Shown: positions 11,600-34,597 of the stretch, piece by piece | Layout of the letters: every line of letters starts with the position of its first letter | How positions within the stretch are numbered: the first letter of the stretch is position 1 | Source: an uncultured Planctomycetales bacterium | GTDB lineage: Bacteria; Planctomycetota; Planctomycetia; Isosphaerales; Isosphaeraceae | DNA: 47,007 nt | NCBI GenBank assembly: GCA_903926465.1 | Contig: CAIYJE010000168.1 | Span: 1 to 47,007 of the forward strand | Reading direction: 5' to 3' | Notes under the pieces: generated by a model | What the model was told of the DNA's origin: nothing | Database searches by the model: none | The model's input: the letters and a program-made list of their open reading frames with translations, nothing else | Program-made: the position numbers and the translations under genes

Positions 11600-14203
11600 T
11601 CATGCAGGAGTATTGCTGGATTCCGCCTGCCAGTTCCCGTTCCAGCCCTGCCTGAGTTGCTTCAAGGTCTGCTCCCAGGCCTCGGGAGTTCGCGACGGCG
11701 GGAAGGGGATTGGCTGGATGAGGTCGCTGGAGCTTTTCAGCACGCGATAGCGACCATCGGAGTCAATCTGGGCCAGCCGGAAGAACCGAGAGCAGTACTG
11801 GGTGCTCGCATCGACCCGGATCGGTCCTTCCGGGGCCGAGATCGATTGGTTGCGAACAGCCTGCCGCACCATGGCTGGATCCAGGGATTGGGCGGCCTCC
11901 ACGGCGGCGGCCCACAGAAGCACGCTGGCATAGGCGGTTTCGGTGCTATCGGTCGGTACCCGGGACGGTCCGTAGGCAGTTCGAAACTCATCAAGGAACG
12001 CAGCGTTTTCTGTCTGGAGCAAGCTCTCGAAGTAACTCCCTGCAAAGTAATCGCCAGCGAGTAGTTCTGGGTCAATGGCGCGTATAGAGCCTGAATTGAG
12101 GCAGAATGAGAGTGATGGTGTGGTCTCGGCTAGAATTCCAGCCTCACGCAGAGATCGGAAGAAGGAAACGTTGGAGTCTCCGTTGATCAGGTTCAGGATC
12201 AGGTCCGGACGGGCCTGACGGATCTGTTCCACCGGAACGGTCATGTCTATCTGCCCGAGCCTGACGAACGCGTCGCCCACCAGTTCGCACCCCAGCCCAG
12301 GCAGTTGATCCTGGATGATGGCCAGCACGGCGCGCGGATAAACGTAGTCGGACCCCACCAGGAATAGCCGCCGTTTCCCCACCTCTCGGCACCATTCCAG
12401 CGCGGGCAGAACCTGCTGGTTGGCCGAGTTGCCCACGTAAACGATCCAGGGCGAAAGTTCCAATCCCTCAAACGGGGTGGGATAAAAGAGCAGGGCCGAT
12501 CGCCGTTCAACCACCTCTTTAACGGCCTTCCTGCAGGCTGAACTCCAGCATCCAAAGAGTGCGTTCACCCCCTCGGCGCTGATCAGCCGATCGGCCTCCT
12601 CGGCAAAAACCTCGGGTCTCGATCGACCATTTCCGGTCACGGCCAGGATCGGCCGTCCCAGCACGCCCCCTTGCTGGTTAATTCGTTTGACCGCAAGCTG
12701 GATTCCCTGGATGGTCCCAGACTCACACGCCATAAGCGTGCCAGACTCGGAGGCCAGCAATCCGATCTTGATGGGACTCTGAGAACCGGCACTCTGGCTG
12801 GCTGTTGCTGCCGGTCCAGTTGTGGATTCGCCGCCCGTCTCCTGCGAGACCATAAGACCCGGCTTGCGGCGGCGGCGTGCCCAGGTAACGCCCGCGCTAC
12901 CGGCCAGAAAACTACCGGCGGCCACGGTGGCGGTTAACCATGCACGCCGCGAACTGATCGACGGGATGCCCCAGCCTGTTGCACCGGTCTGGCCAGAACC
13001 GGAGATCCCCGCGCCGCGTGCGCGCGGCTTTCCTTGGGTGGTCTCGTTCTTGGACCGTTTCAGGACCTTTTGGATGTCGCACCGCATTTCTTCGGCGGTT
13101 TGATATCGCTCTTCGGGCCGCTTGGCCATGGCCTTGAGCACAATGTGAGAGACCTCGGCCGGAAGCTCCGGGTTCCGGGCACGCGGGTCTGGCGTGGGCT
13201 TGTAGCAATGCCCCATCATCACGCCGGTTGAACTGCCCTGGTCATCGTAAGGTGCAACGCCGGTGAGCAGGGCGTAATAGGTTGCTCCCAACGAGTAGAT
13301 ATCGCTCCGAACGTCAAGCGGTTGGGCGTGGCATTGCTCGGGGCTCATGAATGAGGGGGTGCCCAGAGTTTTGTTGTCCTGGGTGAGGTCGACCCCCTTG
13401 AGACCGGTCTCCTTGACCAGCCCGAAATCGGTCAGCTTTACAATGCCATGAGTTGAGCGCAGCAGGTTGGCAGGTTTGAGGTCACGGTGGATCAGTTTTG
13501 CCTTGTGTGCCACCGTGAGTCCGCGGCAGGCCTGCTCAATTTCTCTGGTTGCCTCTCGCCAGGAGATCGGGCCGTCTTTGAGCGCATCGGCCAGGCTACC
13601 GCCATCCACGTATTCAAGCACCAGGTAGCGGTCTGGGGGCGTATCGTTAATCTCGTAAATCGCCACTACGTTGGGGTGGCTCAGGCGTGCAACGGCCCGT
13701 GCTTCACGAAGAAATCTGGCCTGTGCTTCCGGATCTTCGGCTTTTGATTCGGAGAGCAGTTTGATGGCGACCTTGCGGCCCAAGATCGGGTCTTGGGCCT
13801 CATAAACCGTCCCCATGCCACCGCGGCCGAGCAGGCTGGCAATCTTGAGCCGACCAAGCACGGTTCCAATTCGAGAATCTGTCCGCGATCCCGATCGAAA
13901 TTCGCCAGCCGAGCCGCCTCCAGATATGCGGAGCGGAGGCGAACTGGGGTGCGCCACCAGGTCGACGTCTTTCACGGTATCCACGCCCGAGCTTTCCAGC
14001 GACGGCGGAATGAACTCCAGCCGCTCGGTTGGTTCCGGAGAGTGTTCTCCCTGCACGCCTGAAGTGGGTTCTGGTTCGGTGGGGCTGGCCACGATCGAGG
14101 TATACCGACGTCGGGTTGAACGTCGCCTTACGAGCAATCTCTGGATAATGACTTTGGACGAATCCTGATCATACCCGTTGGATTTCGCCGGGTGGGACTC
14201 CAA
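11600..14203 (-). CDS. Membrane Ser/Thr protein kinase fused to a UrtA-like substrate-binding sensor domain
   Basis: 867 residues in three parts. The N-terminal kinase (about 118-382) has glycine loop LGRGGMG (125-131), lysine in VAIK (K148), catalytic loop HRDLKPAN (239-246), DFG (259-261) and GTPSFMSPEQ in the activation segment, so it should be active. A single membrane segment (about 421-440) is preceded by SSRRAWL, resembling a Tat signal. The C-terminal region (about 477-845) is a type I periplasmic binding domain of the UrtA/AmiC class: KIGLLASESGT, INQQGGVLGRPI, FGCWSSACRKAV, LLFYPTPFEGLE and NSANQQVLPA match urea and amide binding proteins. Known families suggest a cytoplasmic kinase controlled by a ligand bound outside; the ligand and targets are inference. 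The start is uncertain (the longest frame begins with TTG and lacks a clear SD), but the kinase domain is unaffected. Confidence 0.85.
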   Translation of the reverse strand: MESHPAKSNGYDQDSSKVIIQRLLVRRRSTRRRYTSIVASPTEPEPTSGVQGEHSPEPTERLEFIPPSLESSGVDTVKDVDLVAHPSSPPLRISGGGSAGEFRSGSRTDSRIGTVLGRLKIASLLGRGGMGTVYEAQDPILGRKVAIKLLSESKAEDPEAQARFLREARAVARLSHPNVVAIYEINDTPPDRYLVLEYVDGGSLADALKDGPISWREATREIEQACRGLTVAHKAKLIHRDLKPANLLRSTHGIVKLTDFGLVKETGLKGVDLTQDNKTLGTPSFMSPEQCHAQPLDVRSDIYSLGATYYALLTGVAPYDDQGSSTGVMMGHCYKPTPDPRARNPELPAEVSHIVLKAMAKRPEERYQTAEEMRCDIQKVLKRSKNETTQGKPRARGAGISGSGQTGATGWGIPSISSRRAWLTATVAAGSFLAGSAGVTWARRRRKPGLMVSQETGGESTTGPAATASQSAGSQSPIKIGLLASESGTLMACESGTIQGIQLAVKRINQQGGVLGRPILAVTGNGRSRPEVFAEEADRLISAEGVNALFGCWSSACRKAVKEVVERRSALLFYPTPFEGLELSPWIVYVGNSANQQVLPALEWCREVGKRRLFLVGSDYVYPRAVLAIIQDQLPGLGCELVGDAFVRLGQIDMTVPVEQIRQARPDLILNLINGDSNVSFFRSLREAGILAETTPSLSFCLNSGSIRAIDPELLAGDYFAGSYFESLLQTENAAFLDEFRTAYGPSRVPTDSTETAYASVLLWAAAVEAAQSLDPAMVRQAVRNQSISAPEGPIRVDASTQYCSRFFRLAQIDSDGRYRVLKSSSDLIQPIPFPPSRTPEAWEQTLKQLRQGWNGNWQAESSNTPA

Positions 14204-14384: not shown

Positions 14385-16016
14385 TCAATACATGTCTTCG
14401 TAGCCACCGTGGCCGCCGCCACCCTTCTTGGAATCACCTTCTGGCATGTCGGCGATCAGGGCATCGCTGGTGAGCAGCAGGGTGGAAACGCTGGCTGCGT
14501 TTTGCAGGGCCGAGCGGGTCACCTTGGTGGGGTCGATGATGCCGGCTTCCACCATGTCACAATACTTGTCGTGGAGAGCGTCGTAGCCGAAGTTCCCCTT
14601 ACCTTCAACCACCTTGGAAGCCACAACGCCGCCGTCTTTGCCAGCGTTCTGGGCGATCTGGGTGATTGGGGCCGAGCAAGCACGCAGGATGATGCCGTAG
14701 CCCGTTCGCTCGTCTTCGGACAGGTCTTTGCCAGCCTGAACGAGGGAAGCGGCACGGATCAGGGCCACGCCACCGCCTGGGAGAATGCCTTCTTCCAGAG
14801 CAGCGCGAGTTGCGTGAAGGGCGTCTTCAACGCGGGCCTTCTTCTCTTTCATTTCACTTTCGGTGGCAGCACCGACGTTGATCTTGGCCACGCCACCGGC
14901 GAGCTTCGCCAGTCGCTCTTCGAGCTTCTCGCGGTCGTAGTCGCTCTTGGTGTCGCCGATCTCGCGGCGGATCTGTTCAATCCGGCCCTTGATGGCATCG
15001 GTCGAACCGGCGCCTTCGATCAGGGTGGTGTTATCCTTGTCAATAATCACCTTCTTGGCGGAGCCCAGGTCGGCCAGGCCCACGTTTTCCAGCTCAATGC
15101 CAAGGGCTTCGAAGATTGGCTTGCCGCCAGAGAGAACGGCAATATCTTCAAGCATGGCCTTGCGGCGGTCACCGTATCCAGGAGCCTTGACAGCAACGCT
15201 CCGGAAGGTGCCACGCAGCTTGTTGATGACCAGGGTGGCCAGAGCCTCACCCTCAACCTCTTCGGCGATGATCAGGAGCGGGCGGCCAGTCTGAGCCACC
15301 TTCTCCAGAACCGGCACCAGGTCCTTCACCACGCTGATCTTCTTCTCATGGATCAGAATGTAAGGATCCTCAAGCACGACTTCCATCGTCTGAGGGTTGG
15401 TGACGAAGTAGGGGGAAAGGAAGCCGCGGTCAAACTGCATCCCCTCAACCCACTCCACCTCGGTCTTGAGGCTCTTGCCTTCTTCGACCGTGATGACGCC
15501 GTCTTTGCCAACCTTCTCGGTGGCTTCGGCAATCATCTTGCCAATCTCGTGGTCAAAGTTTGAAGCAACCGTGGCAACCTGTTCGGTTTCCTTGGTGCTA
15601 GAAACCTTGATGCTGGCCTTCTTGAGCTGGCCAATGATGTCTTCAACCGCACGGTCCATGCCCCGCTTCATCAGCATGGGGTTCACGCCGGCCACAACGG
15701 CCTTGAGGCCTTCGTTGTAGATGGCTTCGGCCATCACGGTGGCGGTGGTGGTGCCGTCGCCGGCCACGTCGGAGGTCTTGCTGGCGACCTCCTTAACCAT
15801 CTTGGCGCCCATGTCTTCATAGCGGTCTTCCAGCTCGATCTCCTTGGCAACGGTCACGCCGTCCTTGGTGACCGTGGGAGAGCCGAACGACTTCTGAATG
15901 ATGACGTTGCGGCCACGTGGGCCGAGGGTCACTTTGACGGCGCGAGCGAGCTTGGTGATGCCCCGCTGCATTGCCTGACGTGCTTCTTGATCAAACGCGA
16001 TCATTTTCGCGGCCAT
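14385..16016 (-). CDS. groEL: Chaperonin GroEL (60 kDa)
   Basis: 543 residues of Hsp60, the ATP-driven protein-folding chamber that works with GroES in the cytoplasm. Visible signatures include [34 protein letters not shown] near the N-terminus, the nucleotide loop [18 protein letters not shown]-like [16 protein letters not shown] near 400, and NAG in the lid region. ATG at 16016 ([10 protein letters not shown]) is preferred over an upstream TTG because GAGGAG lies about ten bases before it. The C-terminus is [12 protein letters not shown], not the usual run of GGM repeats. It lies 130 bases downstream of groES on the same strand and ends 31 bases before the terminator. No CIRCE operator was found upstream of the pair. 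Confidence 0.97.
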
Positions 16017-16146
16017 GGGCAACTATCTCCTCAATCTGAACTATGGATGTGAACGAATCAACTCACGCAGTGGTCGAAAACATGGGGGTCGTGCAGGCCT
16101 GCTCGCTGTGGAGAAAGCCTTGGCCCCGCCGATGTGCCGCTACGGT

Positions 16147-29199: not shown

Positions 29200-32100
29200 T
29201 TATTCGCCGACGGTTGCAGCCGTGACCACAGGTTGATGAAGTGTTGCGCCATTGGTTGAAGGATCGGTGTCAACCACGGCGGTGCCCTTGTGTGGGCCTC
29301 GGCCGACAAACCGCCGGGCTCGCCGCCAGCCGCCGGCTAGCTGGTCGAGCAGGGTGTAAAACACCGGGGTCACCAGCAGGGCCAGGATCAAAGAGAGCAT
29401 CTGACCGCCGATGATCACCTTGGCCATGCTGGCACGAGCTCCAGCCCCAGGCCCCTGGCCGAGTGCAATCGGTACCATCGCGGCCACGAGCATGACCGTG
29501 GTCATCAAGATTGGGCGAAGGCGGGTTTTGTTAGCTTCAAGAATAGCGTGCAGGCGGTCCATTCCCTTTTCGCGAAGCTGGTTGGTGGCGTCGACCTGAA
29601 GAATCCCGTTCTTCTTGACAATGCCCACCAGCATGAAAAGCCCAAACATGGCGTAAAGGTCCATGGGGGTCTTGAAAAGCACCAGCGAGAGCATGCCGAA
29701 TGGAACGGTGACCGGCAGCGCCATCAGGATGGCAATCGGCTGCATCCAGCTCTCGAACTGGGCGGCCAGAATCAGGTACATGAACACAATCGACATGGCG
29801 AATGCGATCAAGAAGTACTTGCCGGTTTCGCCCAGAGTTTTGGCCTGACCGCTGACCTCGTAACCGTAACCTGGCGGCAAATCAATTTGTTTCAAGATCG
29901 CTTCGGAACGACTCACGGCTTCACCCAGGGCAATTCCCTCGGGGTTGCCCAGTACGGTCACAATGCGCTGGCGGCCGAGCCGTTCGATCTCGGTTGGCCC
30001 GCGCTCTTCTTTCAGTCGGGCGACGCTGGCGATTTTGACAAGTTCGCCGGTGATGGAAGGGACGGTCATATTCTCGATATCTTCCATCGAGGCTCGTTCC
30101 GACTGAGCTGCGCGAAGCCAGACGTCGTATTGCTGGCCAGAGTCGCGGAAGTTGGTGATGGCCATGCCGCCAACCAGGGTTCGCAGCGTGTCGGCAATGC
30201 TGGCAACCTGAATACCCAGGTCACTGGCAGCCTCACGGAGAATGGTCACCTGGAGTTCGGGCTTTCTGAGTGACAGGGTGGTGTCGAGGTCGGTCATGCC
30301 GCCGGCCTTCGCCAGACCGTCTTTGAGCTGGTCGGCGTAATCCGAAAGTTTGGTGAGGTCCGGGCCAGAGAGGTTCATCTGGAAGATCTGGGGTCTCCGG
30401 CCGCCCTGGAAGGCGGAGACGTCGTTCACGCTGGCGCGAAGGTCTGGATAATCGGCCAGAAGATCACGGGCCTGTTGCTGAACGGTGAACTGGCTGAAAT
30501 CTCGATGTTCCAGGTCTTTCATCCGGACGTAAACGGTGGCGCGGGTCACGTCTCCTTGCCCCTTCACCTGCCGGGCGCCGGTTGCCCCGATGGTGGAGAG
30601 CAAATTGTTGGTGCCTGGAAGGCTGCGGAGCCGGTTTTCGAGGTCTCGGACCACCTTGTCCGTCTGGTCGAGCGTGTAACCCTCGGGCGTGATCAGGTTC
30701 ACTTCGTATTCGCTTTGGTCGTCTCGTGGAATGAGCGAAAGGCCCATGATCTTGCCAATGGGCACGGTGCTGCCAATCACGCCCAGGGTCAGCAAAACCA
30801 CCACGAATTTGAATCGGAGTGCGCCTTTGAGCAGGCCCCCGTAGCTACCGTCGATGATCCGCCAGATCAGCCCGGACTTGCTGCCCTTGTTCGCGCCATG
30901 GTTTGGTTCGAGCTTGAGGAACCGGCTGCAAAGCATGGGGGTCAGGGTGAACGAGACGAACAAGCTCATGGCCACGGCAAACGCCACGGTAAGCCCGAAG
31001 CTTGAGAAGAACCGGCCGACAATTCCACCCATGAAAGCAATGGGCAAGAAGATGACGATGAGCGAGAGGCTAGTGGCCAGCACGGCGAGGGCTATTTCAT
31101 TGGTGCCAACTCGGGCCGCGGTCATGGCGTCTATGCCGTCTTCTTCCATGTGCCTGAAGATGTTTTCATGAACAACCACGGCGTCGTCGATCACAATGCC
31201 GATCGCCAGGATCAGGGCGAGCATGGTGATGTTGTTGAGCGTGAACCCCATGATGCTCATGAAGGCAAACGTGGGGATGATCGATGTGGGAATGGCCAGG
31301 GTGGCAATGAGCGTGGTACGCCAGTCTCTGATGAACAGCAAGATGGTGATAGACACCAGCACGCCTGCCAGAAGCAAGTGAAACTTCACTTCCTCGATCG
31401 ACTTCTTGATGAAGCGCGATTGGTCTTTGATAATTTCATATTTCACGTCTGCCGGCAGAGATTTCTTGATCTCGGCCAGACGCTCCTGGATCCGTTCTGA
31501 GACCTCCACGGTATTGGTGCCCGACTGCTTCTGCACCACCAGACTGACGGCATTCTGGCCATCGAGCCGAGCCAGCGACCGCGGTTCTTCATAAGAATCT
31601 TCCGCGCGACCGATATCGCGAATTCGCACCAGATAACCACCACGGTTGGCAATGATCAGGTTGTCAAATTCCTGCGCGGTATTCAGACGCCCCAGGGTGC
31701 GAAGCACGACCTCGCGTGGGCCCTGGTCGAGTCTGCCGCCGGGCACTTCCAGGTTCTGGCGTCTGAGGGCGTTGGCCACATCGGTGACCGAGAGCGAAAA
31801 CGAGTTCAAACGGGTGGTGTCGATCACCACATTAATGGACCGGGTCCGGCCGCCCACCAGGCTAACCGCGCCCACGCCATCGACCGTTTCAAGCCGCTCT
31901 TTGATCTGCCGGCGCGCCAGTTCGGTCACTTCCCGAAAGTCTCGGCGTCCAGAGATGGCAACGGTCATGACCGGCATCCCGTCGGTCTCAAACTTGTCCA
32001 CAATCGGCGCCTGGGTACCCTCTGGAAGTTCGGCCAGGATACTGTTGATCTTGTCGCGAACTTCCTGAGTGCCCACGTCTCCATTTTTGGAGAGCTGGAA

Positions 32101-32382
32101 CTGAACGGTGACCACCGCCACACCTTCGTTAGTGGTCGAGCGTACTTCCTCGATACCACTGATGGTGTTGATGATATCTTCAATTGGCTTGGTGACCGAG
32201 GTCTCCATCTCTTCAACGCTGGCTCCCGGCAGCGCGGTTGTGACGGCACATACGGGGAAATCGACGTTCGGAAACAGGTCGACCCCCAGCCGCCCGTACG
32301 ATGCAATTCCCAGCACAACCGGGATCATCACGAGCACCCATGTGAAGACGGGTCGTCGAATACAGACTTCGGAGACGGTCAT
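29200..32382 (-). CDS. RND-family efflux permease (AcrB/MdtB type)
   Basis: 1060 residues, the usual length for a HAE1-type RND pump driven by proton import. The N-terminus VCIRRPVFTWVLVMIPVVLG is the first membrane helix. The large periplasmic loop follows with PGASVEEMETSVTKPIEDII. The proton-relay helix 4 region is ILAIGIVIDDAVVVHENI, carrying the essential paired aspartates. The second half repeats the layout, and VGIVKKNGILQVD lies in helix 10. It would export drugs, lipophiles or metals depending on the family; the substrate cannot be read. It is last in the tetR-MFP-RND operon, 54 bases after the adaptor gene. No outer-membrane channel gene is nearby. Confidence 0.93.
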   Translation of the reverse strand: MTVSEVCIRRPVFTWVLVMIPVVLGIASYGRLGVDLFPNVDFPVCAVTTALPGASVEEMETSVTKPIEDIINTISGIEEVRSTTNEGVAVVTVQFQLSKNGDVGTQEVRDKINSILAELPEGTQAPIVDKFETDGMPVMTVAISGRRDFREVTELARRQIKERLETVDGVGAVSLVGGRTRSINVVIDTTRLNSFSLSVTDVANALRRQNLEVPGGRLDQGPREVVLRTLGRLNTAQEFDNLIIANRGGYLVRIRDIGRAEDSYEEPRSLARLDGQNAVSLVVQKQSGTNTVEVSERIQERLAEIKKSLPADVKYEIIKDQSRFIKKSIEEVKFHLLLAGVLVSITILLFIRDWRTTLIATLAIPTSIIPTFAFMSIMGFTLNNITMLALILAIGIVIDDAVVVHENIFRHMEEDGIDAMTAARVGTNEIALAVLATSLSLIVIFLPIAFMGGIVGRFFSSFGLTVAFAVAMSLFVSFTLTPMLCSRFLKLEPNHGANKGSKSGLIWRIIDGSYGGLLKGALRFKFVVVLLTLGVIGSTVPIGKIMGLSLIPRDDQSEYEVNLITPEGYTLDQTDKVVRDLENRLRSLPGTNNLLSTIGATGARQVKGQGDVTRATVYVRMKDLEHRDFSQFTVQQQARDLLADYPDLRASVNDVSAFQGGRRPQIFQMNLSGPDLTKLSDYADQLKDGLAKAGGMTDLDTTLSLRKPELQVTILREAASDLGIQVASIADTLRTLVGGMAITNFRDSGQQYDVWLRAAQSERASMEDIENMTVPSITGELVKIASVARLKEERGPTEIERLGRQRIVTVLGNPEGIALGEAVSRSEAILKQIDLPPGYGYEVSGQAKTLGETGKYFLIAFAMSIVFMYLILAAQFESWMQPIAILMALPVTVPFGMLSLVLFKTPMDLYAMFGLFMLVGIVKKNGILQVDATNQLREKGMDRLHAILEANKTRLRPILMTTVMLVAAMVPIALGQGPGAGARASMAKVIIGGQMLSLILALLVTPVFYTLLDQLAGGWRRARRFVGRGPHKGTAVVDTDPSTNGATLHQPVVTAATVGE

Positions 32383-32436
32383 GAGTGCGAAGATCCTGAG
32401 AGAAGCTTGTGAGGAGTGGGAATCAGCGAGAGTTCA

Positions 32437-33900
32437 TCAAGACGCGGGAGTTGTAGCCGGCTGAGGCGATACGGTTGCGGGAGCGGTTTCCGCCCCAGCG
32501 CTGGCCTTGGGTGCGGCAACTGGGGCAGTTGTTGCCGGTTCAGCACCACCGGTACCGGCTTCGCGCACAATCACCGGGCTGCCTTCAGCCAGCTTGGCCA
32601 GCACACTCTGGCCGGTATCCACAACCTGGCCATCGCGTGGTAGCGGTTCATCCGTGCCAATGACTTCGATATCAGGGCCATACTGCCGGCCAGGGCGAAC
32701 CGAATAGCCCCGCGCCTTGCCATCCTCGACCAGAAAGATCTTGGTCACGCCGGCAAAGCTGTAAATGGCCTGAAGGGGCACGACAACCGCTTCTTCGGAC
32801 CGCGCGGTGATGATCTCACCCTTGGCGAATCCACCGGGAGGCAGCATACCCTCGGAGTTGGAAATGATGGCTTCCACCTGAAAGGTACGGCTGGTGGCAT
32901 CGACCGACGGGTTAATGCGGGCCACTCGCCCTTCAAAGGTTTCGTCCGGGTGAGATTGAGCCTTGAGACGCACAAACGCGTCGGGTGGCACCAAGCCGCG
33001 ATATCGCTCGGGAACGTTGGCCCAAAGCCTGATCGGGTTGTCGATCACCATCTCAAAAATGGCTTCTCCATCCTTGATTCGCTGGCCCTCATGGATCATC
33101 CGTTTGGTGATCGCATACGTCATGGCCGATTTGTCTTCCAGTCCTGGTGGGGAAGACGAAGGCTCAGGCGCACGAATGGTCATGTCTGTACGATCTTGCT
33201 GGGCAATTTTCAATGCAACCCAGCTTGAGAGCGCGGCCGCGATGGTGTTCTTGGCGGTCAGAACGGTGTTATCGAGCGCGGCTTCCGCCTGCTTGACCTC
33301 GTTTTCGGTGTTTTGAAGGTCTTGTAGGGTGCCCGCATTCTTGCGGTACATGTTGTCCTGACGCGCGAAGTCGAGCTTGGCTTTCTCAAGCTTGGTCTTC
33401 GCTTGAAGGACTCCGGGCAGAGTATCGATGTGCTTGGCAACATCGTCGGCGTTGTACAGAGATTCATTGATCCCGTACTTATCCACAAATGCCACGGCCT
33501 GTTCCCGAGTCAGGCCCAGCTTCGACAGTTCGCTAAGGAACTTGGCTTCAGCCTGGAGAACGGCCAAGTCGGCATCTACCGGATCAAGCTCAAGCAGGGG
33601 GGTGCCAGGTTTGAGCTTGTCTCCCATATCATGGAAAACCTTGAGAACTTTGCCCCCCTTCTTGGAACTGACGGTGACCTGCTCCCAGGCTCTCAGAGAG
33701 CCTTCAATTTCAACCCGCCGTTCCACGGCCCTGTGCGTGAGCGGAGAGACCGTCACCACCACGGGCCGGTTTTCGGTTTCTGCTGCGGCTTTTGCGCCTG
33801 GTTCTTCCTTGTGCCCACATCCCGTCGCCAGGATCGGGAAGGTCAGCAATATCGGGAGCCAGGCGGACCTTCGAGCAACACGATCCCGAGCATCAGACAT
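32437..33900 (-). CDS. RND efflux periplasmic adaptor (membrane fusion lipoprotein)
   Basis: 487 residues from ATG 33900 (MSDARDRVARRSAW), which has GGGAG seven bases upstream and overlaps the tetR stop as ATGTCTGA. The lipoprotein signal peptide ends ATGC at about residue 28. The biotinyl-lipoyl region comprises VEIEGSLRAWEQVTVSSKKGGKVLKV and LLELDPVDADLAVLQ around a long helical hairpin (about 110-215), with the beta-barrel region VRLKAQSHPDETFEGRVARI near 310-330. It bridges the pump and an outer-membrane channel. The C-terminal 30 residues are Ala/Pro-rich. Translational coupling to tetR puts pump level under the same transcript. Confidence 0.9.
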   Translation of the reverse strand: MSDARDRVARRSAWLPILLTFPILATGCGHKEEPGAKAAAETENRPVVVTVSPLTHRAVERRVEIEGSLRAWEQVTVSSKKGGKVLKVFHDMGDKLKPGTPLLELDPVDADLAVLQAEAKFLSELSKLGLTREQAVAFVDKYGINESLYNADDVAKHIDTLPGVLQAKTKLEKAKLDFARQDNMYRKNAGTLQDLQNTENEVKQAEAALDNTVLTAKNTIAAALSSWVALKIAQQDRTDMTIRAPEPSSSPPGLEDKSAMTYAITKRMIHEGQRIKDGEAIFEMVIDNPIRLWANVPERYRGLVPPDAFVRLKAQSHPDETFEGRVARINPSVDATSRTFQVEAIISNSEGMLPPGGFAKGEIITARSEEAVVVPLQAIYSFAGVTKIFLVEDGKARGYSVRPGRQYGPDIEVIGTDEPLPRDGQVVDTGQSVLAKLAEGSPVIVREAGTGGAEPATTAPVAAPKASAGAETAPATVSPQPATTPAS

Positions 33901-34597
33901 GCTTGACTCCCGATTCCTGCGGTGGAGGCTCATGAGAGATGGAAAACCCCTGAAGCAACTGGGCCACAAGTCTTGTGGGCAGGTCTTCAGGTAAAGGGTG
34001 ATTGCGGTAGAGGTAATCCACGGTCTGGATAACCACCAGGCCGCGAACCGCGGTGGTGAAGCCACTGCGGGACTTGTCGTCGCCTGGAATCAACTGGCTT
34101 GCGACCAGCCGATCAACGGCCTGTTCCAGAAGCTGGTCGAATCGCTCGGCATACGGGCCAAGCATTCCGGCAAGGCTGGAGCTCAACGGACCGAACATCA
34201 CGGCATAGGCCAGTCGAGCCCGGTCGGGAGCTTCGCAGCAAAAGCGGAAATGGGCCTCAATCAGGCGGGCCACAGCGTGAAGCGGGTCGGGTTCTTCGTT
34301 CACAATGGCGCTGATGGTGGTCGCCAGGGTTTCCAGAGGACGGCTCAGAAGTGCCTCGGCTAGCCCCATTTTGCTCCCGAAGTGGTAGTACAGGGTGGGC
34401 TTGGTCACCTCCGCAGCTTCAACGATCTCGCGCACCGACGTGGCGTCAAACCCCTGACGAGCGAACAGGCTCGCGGCCACGCGAGCGATGTGCTGGGCCA
34501 CAGATTCGTGGACCAAGGCACCCGCAACTCCACCCGCTTCAGGGGCGGGGGGCAGGGTCGTTCCAGAAACTGGGTTGGAACTGGTCGAACTGGACAT
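33893..34597 (-). CDS. TetR/AcrR-family transcriptional regulator, probable repressor of the efflux operon
   Basis: 234 residues from ATG 34597 (a TTG two codons upstream is also in frame). After a flexible N-terminus the HTH spans about 33-80: IARVAASLFARQGFDATSVREIVEAAEVTKPTLYYHFGSKMGL, with the usual TLYYHF recognition end. The C-terminal ligand domain is helical. It is first in the operon, overlapping the adaptor gene by eight bases, and a palindrome sits just upstream at its own promoter. Autorepression relieved by a pump substrate is the expected mode; this is inferred from family and layout. Confidence 0.9.
   Translation of the reverse strand: MSSSTSSNPVSGTTLPPAPEAGGVAGALVHESVAQHIARVAASLFARQGFDATSVREIVEAAEVTKPTLYYHFGSKMGLAEALLSRPLETLATTISAIVNEEPDPLHAVARLIEAHFRFCCEAPDRARLAYAVMFGPLSSSLAGMLGPYAERFDQLLEQAVDRLVASQLIPGDDKSRSGFTTAVRGLVVIQTVDYLYRNHPLPEDLPTRLVAQLLQGFSISHEPPPQESGVKHV

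Follow-up and report, generated by a model that had tools for sequence, protein, structure and literature searches.

A planctomycete family of membrane Ser/Thr kinases fused to an UrtA/AmiC-type binding domain, candidate receptors for amide- or urea-type ligands

To our knowledge, few of the natural signals to which bacterial Hanks-type kinases respond have been identified. AmiC, the amide sensor of Pseudomonas (PDB 1pea), is an UrtA-family binding protein that serves as a sensor; it is a soluble regulator of AmiR. In the GlnH-GlnX-PknG system of Actinobacteria, a Ser/Thr kinase inside the cell receives its signal from an extracellular binding protein, and amino acids are sensed (PMC11032199, main text). 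The same paper surveyed planctomycete kinases and found 105 accessory domains in 307 architectures; the membrane Ser/Thr kinases among them are single-span proteins with domains outside. The terms 'substrate-binding', 'binding protein' and 'urea' have zero occurrences in its main text, and its supplementary tables may list such a domain. Here, we describe a gene of an uncultured Planctomycetales bacterium (Isosphaeraceae) in which a Hanks-type kinase is joined to an UrtA/AmiC-type binding domain. It is located on contig CAIYJE010000168.1 (assembly GCA_903926465.1), of which 47,007 nucleotides were analyzed and are termed the window. GlnH-GlnX-PknG is the nearest working analogue of the receptor kinase proposed here; different from that system of three separate proteins, one protein is used here.

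The minus-strand open reading frame (ORF) encodes 867 residues from a TTG start codon; its true start position is uncertain, since neither in Pfam nor in NCBIfam does the best match begin before about residue 111. The original prediction, made from the DNA letters, had described an apparently active Hanks-type kinase, one membrane segment with a Tat-like SRR start and a near full-length type I binding domain with UrtA hallmarks, together acting as a nitrogen-compound receptor. Pfam placed Pkinase at residues 121–370 (167.7 bits against a cut-off of 31.7) and Peripla_BP_5 at residues 477–836, covering profile positions 1–360 of 363; both domain claims hold. With the Pkinase match and with the VAIK Lys, the HRD Asp (in HRDLKPAN) and the DFG Asp all in place, the protein classifies as a Hanks-type Ser/Thr kinase that is apparently active. 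One single hydrophobic stretch (residues 421–439) lies between the domains, as had been claimed; it is preceded by SRRAWL and followed by TWA and RRRRK. Judged from its sequence, the ORF combines an intact Hanks-type Ser/Thr kinase, a single hydrophobic anchor and an UrtA/AmiC-type binding domain of full length (Table 1). We assign a probability of roughly 0.6 to the reading that it is an outward-facing membrane receptor kinase for an amide- or urea-type ligand, a figure that overlaps with the urea-receptor explanation weighed below.

The same architecture was found in many relatives. The class sample contained 297 genomes, 140 of which were matched in the binding-domain search. From among the matches listed, 100 regions were fetched; together with the window they gave 109 ORFs with the binding domain, of which 69 also hold the kinase. 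Five further fusions, confirmed on short contigs, are counted in the family total and stand outside the 69 proteins scored. In all, the fusion is present in at least 74 proteins from at least 64 of the 297 genomes, about a fifth, and the survey thus bears out the proposed architecture across the class. Three 'unfused' rows end at contig edges (L099, which is probably fused, L102 and L119). The VAIK Lys, the helix-C Glu, HRD and its Lys and Asn are kept in 68 of the 69 fused proteins, with one gap, and the DFG Asp in all 69. Since 73 further proteins have the same domain order, a sequencing error or a fusion of neighboring genes was rejected as the source of the join. Among 45 genomes of the window's own taxonomic family (21 candidates scored per genome), three, from three genera, gave a match that is long and reaches at least E 1e-120. 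Outside the class, 25 of 294 sampled genomes of the phylum match the binding domain, none with an open frame of 760–1130 residues; one frame of 1642 residues (G550) was not examined. The plasmid search gave no record covering 80% of the window protein, the viral contigs searched held no related locus, and the genome contigs searched gave one relative, with the kinase only. As side observations, two or three fused kinases with differing pockets stand close together in L057, L060, L063, L084 and L086, and the fused kinase of L075 (787 aa frame) has no hydrophobic anchor.

Of the 69 fused proteins, the window protein included, 68 carry a hydrophobic segment between the domains (median hydropathy 2.29), and the charge is more positive on the kinase side of this segment in 60 of the 69; this is the pattern expected of a kinase inside and a receptor outside. 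The reading that the outer part of this membrane Ser/Thr kinase is an UrtA-family binding domain is supported, and it would apply to the whole family. The Tat-like start fared less uniformly. A twin-Arg motif, a weak segment and basic residues behind it are marks of Tat signals. The [STN]RRx-hydrophobic motif is found at the segment start in 21 of the 69 fused proteins and is not a family rule. Segments with the motif have a median hydropathy of 1.75 versus 2.40 without it (Mann-Whitney p 0.0002), and values below 1.6 occur in 8 of 21 proteins with the motif versus 2 of 48 without. In the loosely supported binding-domain group of the window protein, five of six members combine the motif with such a low value. 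TatC is over cut-off in the window genome, and, by eye, the transporter-type proteins that stand alone in the class resemble Tat lipoproteins (e.g. L126 and L131). We reasonably infer that an internal Tat signal may have been retained as anchor in this group, and a Tat-like start is plausible for the window protein and its nearest binding-domain relatives.

The closest solved relative of the binding domain is 8tg1 (302 bits), followed by UrtA (about 220 bits) and AmiC (168 bits). The 8tg1 chain, named only 'extracellular ligand-binding receptor', matches residues 467–836 with E 7.4e-89, and a bilobed type I binding fold is very likely because of this match to a solved chain. The NCBI UrtA model TIGR03407 gave 350 bits with the whole protein and 353 bits with the domain alone, below its cut-off of 492.75; six fused relatives scanned reached 454–483 bits, likewise below it, and the controls reached 562 (Deinococcus UrtA) and 509 (the planctomycete-type standalone protein L126). 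Compared with UrtA (PDB 8hic and 7s6e), the window domain is full-length and 36–40% identical to the references compared. Different from UrtA, it is joined to a kinase, scores below the TIGR03407 cut-off, falls outside the transporter clade and comes from a genome without UrtB over cut-off. Its identity to AmiC is 31.7%; like AmiC, it has YPTP and a Tyr at position 192 (UrtA numbering), whereas AmiC lacks the Trp120 and Asn246 letters.

According to PMC10392092, nine residues lie near urea in the UrtA-urea crystal structure: Trp120, Ser122, Tyr141, Gln144, Glu146, Tyr190, Phe192, Asn246 and Ser274. Gln144 hydrogen-bonds urea through its side chain as well as its main chain; mutating it abolished binding or reduced it strongly, whereas mutation of F192 had little effect (PMC10392092). 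The exact pocket string WSYQEYFNS is present in 34 of the 69 fused proteins scored and in 9 of 40 others. The window pocket reads WSYPEYYNC and that of AmiC YSYPEYYVT. The window protein thus departs from the urea pocket at three sites (Gln144 to Pro, Phe192 to Tyr and Ser274 to Cys); the Pro at 144, the Thr preceding it and the Tyr at 192 are AmiC's letters. Six of the nine letters equal those of UrtA and six equal those of AmiC, and on these letters the window pocket is part UrtA and part AmiC. The original prediction had read FYPTPFEG as an UrtA hallmark, but at UrtA position 144 this motif has the form of AmiC and not that of UrtA. This form makes a short aliphatic amide a likelier ligand of the window protein than urea; because its letters are shared equally between UrtA and AmiC, urea would be less likely for it than for its relatives. 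Urea, or a molecule closely analogous to it, appears to be the likelier ligand of the 34 relatives that carry the exact pocket. L032, the nearest relative of the window binding domain (48.5% identity), carries the exact string.

The window genome is 99.66% complete, and no urease, UrtB or urea carboxylase was over cut-off in it. Its best UrtB match has 52 bits against a cut-off of 250.3; UrtC–UrtE were not searched for. Peripla_BP_5 matches just one protein, with no second, and the Peripla_BP_5 and UrtB searches found no matching transporter protein for the binding domain in this genome. The window holds 60 ORFs of 150 residues or more, many being overlapping frames; no ABC importer was seen among the 26 distinct ones scanned, in agreement with the earlier remark that no ABC transporter is nearby. 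A role of the gene as part of a urea transport or urease locus found no support in the genome searches or the window ORFs and was rejected. The formamidase/acetamidase family FmdA_AmdA has one partial match (80 bits) in the window genome, which fits an amide ligand as weak evidence.

Related binding domains are also wired to chemosensory proteins and histidine kinases, which we count in favor of a receptor function. In the binding-domain tree (116 domains, rooted on AmiC; our trees are quick ones with long branches), one supported clade contains six reference UrtA-type proteins, seven standalone proteins of the class and four hybrid histidine kinases, with no fused Ser/Thr kinase inside. The fused domains fall outside this clade of transporter UrtAs, as does a second set of 26 standalone domains. 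This placement is all that the tree gives on the proposed capture of the domain from a transporter, which may have taken place. The fused label changes 5 times on the tree versus 36.5 times after shuffling, compatible with one origin or several, and there is weak agreement between the kinase tree and the binding-domain tree (Mantel rho 0.22, a value reached in 1 of 999 permutations). At 38 loci with unfused domains, the chemotaxis receptor family was found at 24, CheR at 21, CheW at 21 and CheA at 19; none of these occurs at the 63 fused loci. L100, L101, L102 and about 20 related loci encode standalone UrtA-like proteins with an N-terminal hydrophobic segment near CheA, CheR, CheW and a chemotaxis receptor, and the commonest pocket of these chemosensory-associated proteins is WSYAEYWVS. 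In L079 (7914–10799), L081 (5898–9137), L089 (6129–8999) and L092, an N-terminal UrtA-type domain has the urea pocket with Phe or Tyr at 192. Pfam, run on the first three, identifies them as hybrid histidine kinases. In all four, the start of the domain lies among residues 1–24 of the open frame and no signal peptide is visible by eye; therefore, these hybrid histidine kinases are possibly cytoplasmic sensors.

Neighbor families were assigned by BLAST clusters around the 63 fused loci, and Pfam was run on ten examples. In 11 of the 63 loci (L052, L057, L060, L063, L066, L068, L071–L074 and L077), one to three fused genes are immediately followed by a SpoVR gene. DUF444 lies upstream of the fused gene or genes in 10 of the 11 and PrkA further upstream in seven, on one strand throughout; some contigs end early. 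In each of the 11, SpoVR is followed by a small gene that has no match in Pfam. Pfam confirmed PrkA, DUF444 and SpoVR in L060, PrkA in L066 and DUF444 in L052. The SpoVR-type loci all fall within a single branch of the binding-domain tree. Their proteins mostly have the exact pocket or one change, the exceptions being second copies in L057, L060 and L063. We know of no input signal of the PrkA-DUF444-SpoVR genes, and we take YeaG, YeaH and YcgB of E. coli to be PrkA, the DUF444 protein and the SpoVR protein, respectively. According to PMC4664914, E. coli requires the kinase YeaG to adapt when nitrogen starvation is sustained, and the yeaGH promoter is bound by NtrC. A second recurrent neighbor is a bestrophin gene, which adjoins the fused gene on the same strand in 10 of the 63 loci (L036, L048, L065, L067, L082, L083 and L094–L097). 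Five neighbor families overlap the receptor gene; the SpoVR, DUF444, PrkA and bestrophin families do not.

In the mechanism that we propose, the kinase would lie in the cytoplasm, the anchor would span the membrane once and the bilobed UrtA/AmiC-type domain would stand outside the cytoplasm. This domain would close on a small amide-type molecule, and closure, passing through the anchor, would alter kinase pairing or activity. The ligand, or its absence, would be reported through phosphorylation of cell proteins on Ser/Thr, and the protein itself would not import the ligand. A nitrogen-status or starvation response would be the probable output.

Several observations weigh against this reading. 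A single-sequence AlphaFold prediction of the window binding domain had a mean pLDDT of 38 and was uninformative. The window anchor is weak (1.29) and its charge is reversed, with +2 before and +5 after it; a reversed sign occurs in 2 of the 69 fused proteins, the window protein and the anchorless L075. The exact pocket is missing from 35 of the 69, some of which have lost most of it. L134, on a Paracoccus plasmid, is annotated as urtA and adjoins urtB, and its pocket does not match the urea signature, having F at 144, W at 192 and V at 246; therefore, its ligand annotation may be wrong, and pocket letters alone cannot settle a ligand. Of the 297 class genomes, 41 have urease alpha over the cut-off, 6 have UrtB over its cut-off and 0 have urea carboxylase over its own, the scarcity of the latter two being the adverse point. 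Urease is present in 4 of 64 fusion genomes versus 37 of 233 others (Fisher p 0.064), fewer and not more; a urease correlation as support for urea sensing was rejected, as the trend runs the other way. The PrkA-SpoVR context belongs to one branch, which is not that of the window protein, and the window genome has no SpoVR match. The bestrophin context does not speak for nitrogen. Of the proposed nitrogen-compound receptor, the sensing of a nitrogen compound gains some support from the PrkA-DUF444-SpoVR context in that other branch, but gains none from urease.

The binding half may instead have diverged after the fusion to a ligand other than urea or a short amide, which we consider possible, if doubtful. 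The binding-domain branch of the window protein is long (1.23) and its kinase branch shorter (0.62), and many fused relatives have strongly altered pockets, among them L088, the sister of the window's kinase, which also has Pro at 144 and is very different in the rest of the pocket. However, 68 positions are conserved in 33 or all 34 of the signature-bearing proteins; the window protein retains 58 of these positions, and its changes are not significantly concentrated in the pocket (3 of 9 pocket sites versus 7 of 59 other conserved sites, P 0.12). Moreover, two of the altered pocket letters, together with the Thr before the Pro, are AmiC's.

It is unlikely, in our view, that the window protein is a urea receptor like its signature-bearing relatives, with the three pocket changes tolerated. 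The letters it keeps include those of W120, S122, Y190 and N246, and the Tyr at 192 is also seen in the annotated Deinococcus UrtA, at the site where mutation had little effect (PMC10392092). Yet the residue replaced by Pro is Gln144, which bonds urea and is sensitive to mutation in UrtA (PMC10392092), Ser274 has become Cys, and the genome carries none of the three urea genes over cut-off.

A binding domain inside the cell as in AmiC, with a cytoplasmic ligand and a hydrophobic segment that does not cross the membrane, seems improbable. The weak, charge-reversed segment of the window protein, the anchorless L075 and the lack of a visible signal peptide in L079, L081, L089 and L092 would suit such an arrangement, but the segment between the domains in 68 of 69 proteins and the receptor-outside charge bias in 60 of 69 argue for a domain outside. 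That the domain is a structural or pairing module without ligand is very improbable: several fused relatives lost most pocket letters and no ligand is known for any family member, but half of the fused proteins scored keep the exact nine-residue ligand pocket.

A binding protein steering a kinase is known. No title on a Ser/Thr kinase joined to an UrtA-type domain was found among the matches listed in open-licence PMC text, and the one-protein family, its conserved putative urea pocket without urease link and its PrkA-SpoVR placement were not met in the literature searched. Thirty-four members keep a pocket for which a homologue's crystal structure shows the ligand; therefore, a kinase ligand is directly testable, with cheap reagents. 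Through the eleven SpoVR-type loci, receptors of this kind are tied to the PrkA-DUF444-SpoVR genes. Should urea or amides prove to work, the question is raised why urease-less bacteria watch for them. Membrane proteins with an internal Tat signal are few among those known, and if the Tat anchor is real, these receptor kinases would join them. Joining the receptor kinase reading with the data on relatives, we tentatively suggest that the class may have made the urea/amide domain a general receptor module for three outputs, mostly in urease-less species: Ser/Thr kinases in the membrane, hybrid histidine kinases that are probably cytoplasmic, and chemosensory arrays. In one branch, the receptor kinases would be built into the PrkA-DUF444-SpoVR starvation cluster and inform it directly of the nitrogen source outside. 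In the window branch, an internal Tat signal would export the receptor half and remain as membrane anchor, which would make a Tat-inserted receptor kinase with its ligand shifted from urea to a short amide.

Table 1. Window positions of the fused gene and its parts
Feature	Positions	Strand	Basis or remark
Whole fused gene, kinase - anchor - UrtA/AmiC-type binding domain	11600..14203	-	867 aa, TTG, start uncertain
Hanks-type kinase domain, ~residues 115-385	13049..13861	-	Pfam Pkinase E 4.4e-49; K148, E167, D241, D259, E289
Hydrophobic anchor, residues 421-439	12887..12943	-	mean Kyte-Doolittle 1.29 (median of 69 fused proteins 2.29)
Tat-like SRRAWL, residues 418-423	12935..12952	-	motif compared across family; Tat reading putative
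Basic cluster RRRRK behind anchor, residues 443-447	12863..12877	-	sequence
Peripla_BP_5 binding domain, residues 476-836	11696..12778	-	Pfam E 5.3e-111; solved relatives 8tg1, UrtA, AmiC
Pocket stretch W553, S555, Y574, T576, P577, E579 (UrtA W120, S122, Y141, I143, Q144, E146)	12467..12547	-	alignment to UrtA
Pocket residues Y620, Y622 (UrtA Y190, F192)	12338..12346	-	alignment to UrtA
Pocket residue N674 (UrtA N246)	12182..12184	-	alignment to UrtA
Pocket residue C701 (UrtA S274)	12101..12103	-	alignment to UrtA
C-terminal tail past Pfam domain, residues 837-867	11603..11695	-	query ends of family matches

The C-terminal tail behind the Pfam domain is entered by the matches to most fused relatives, and the matches to the standalone transporter-type proteins L125–L131 end at query position 374. 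The window locus has neither the SpoVR nor the bestrophin context, and none of its neighbors is among the 60 neighbor families listed for the loci. Upstream of the kinase gene, on the same strand and 181 bases apart, lies a groEL-like chaperonin gene (14385–16022), and an RND efflux permease and adaptor pair is located at window positions 29200–34065.

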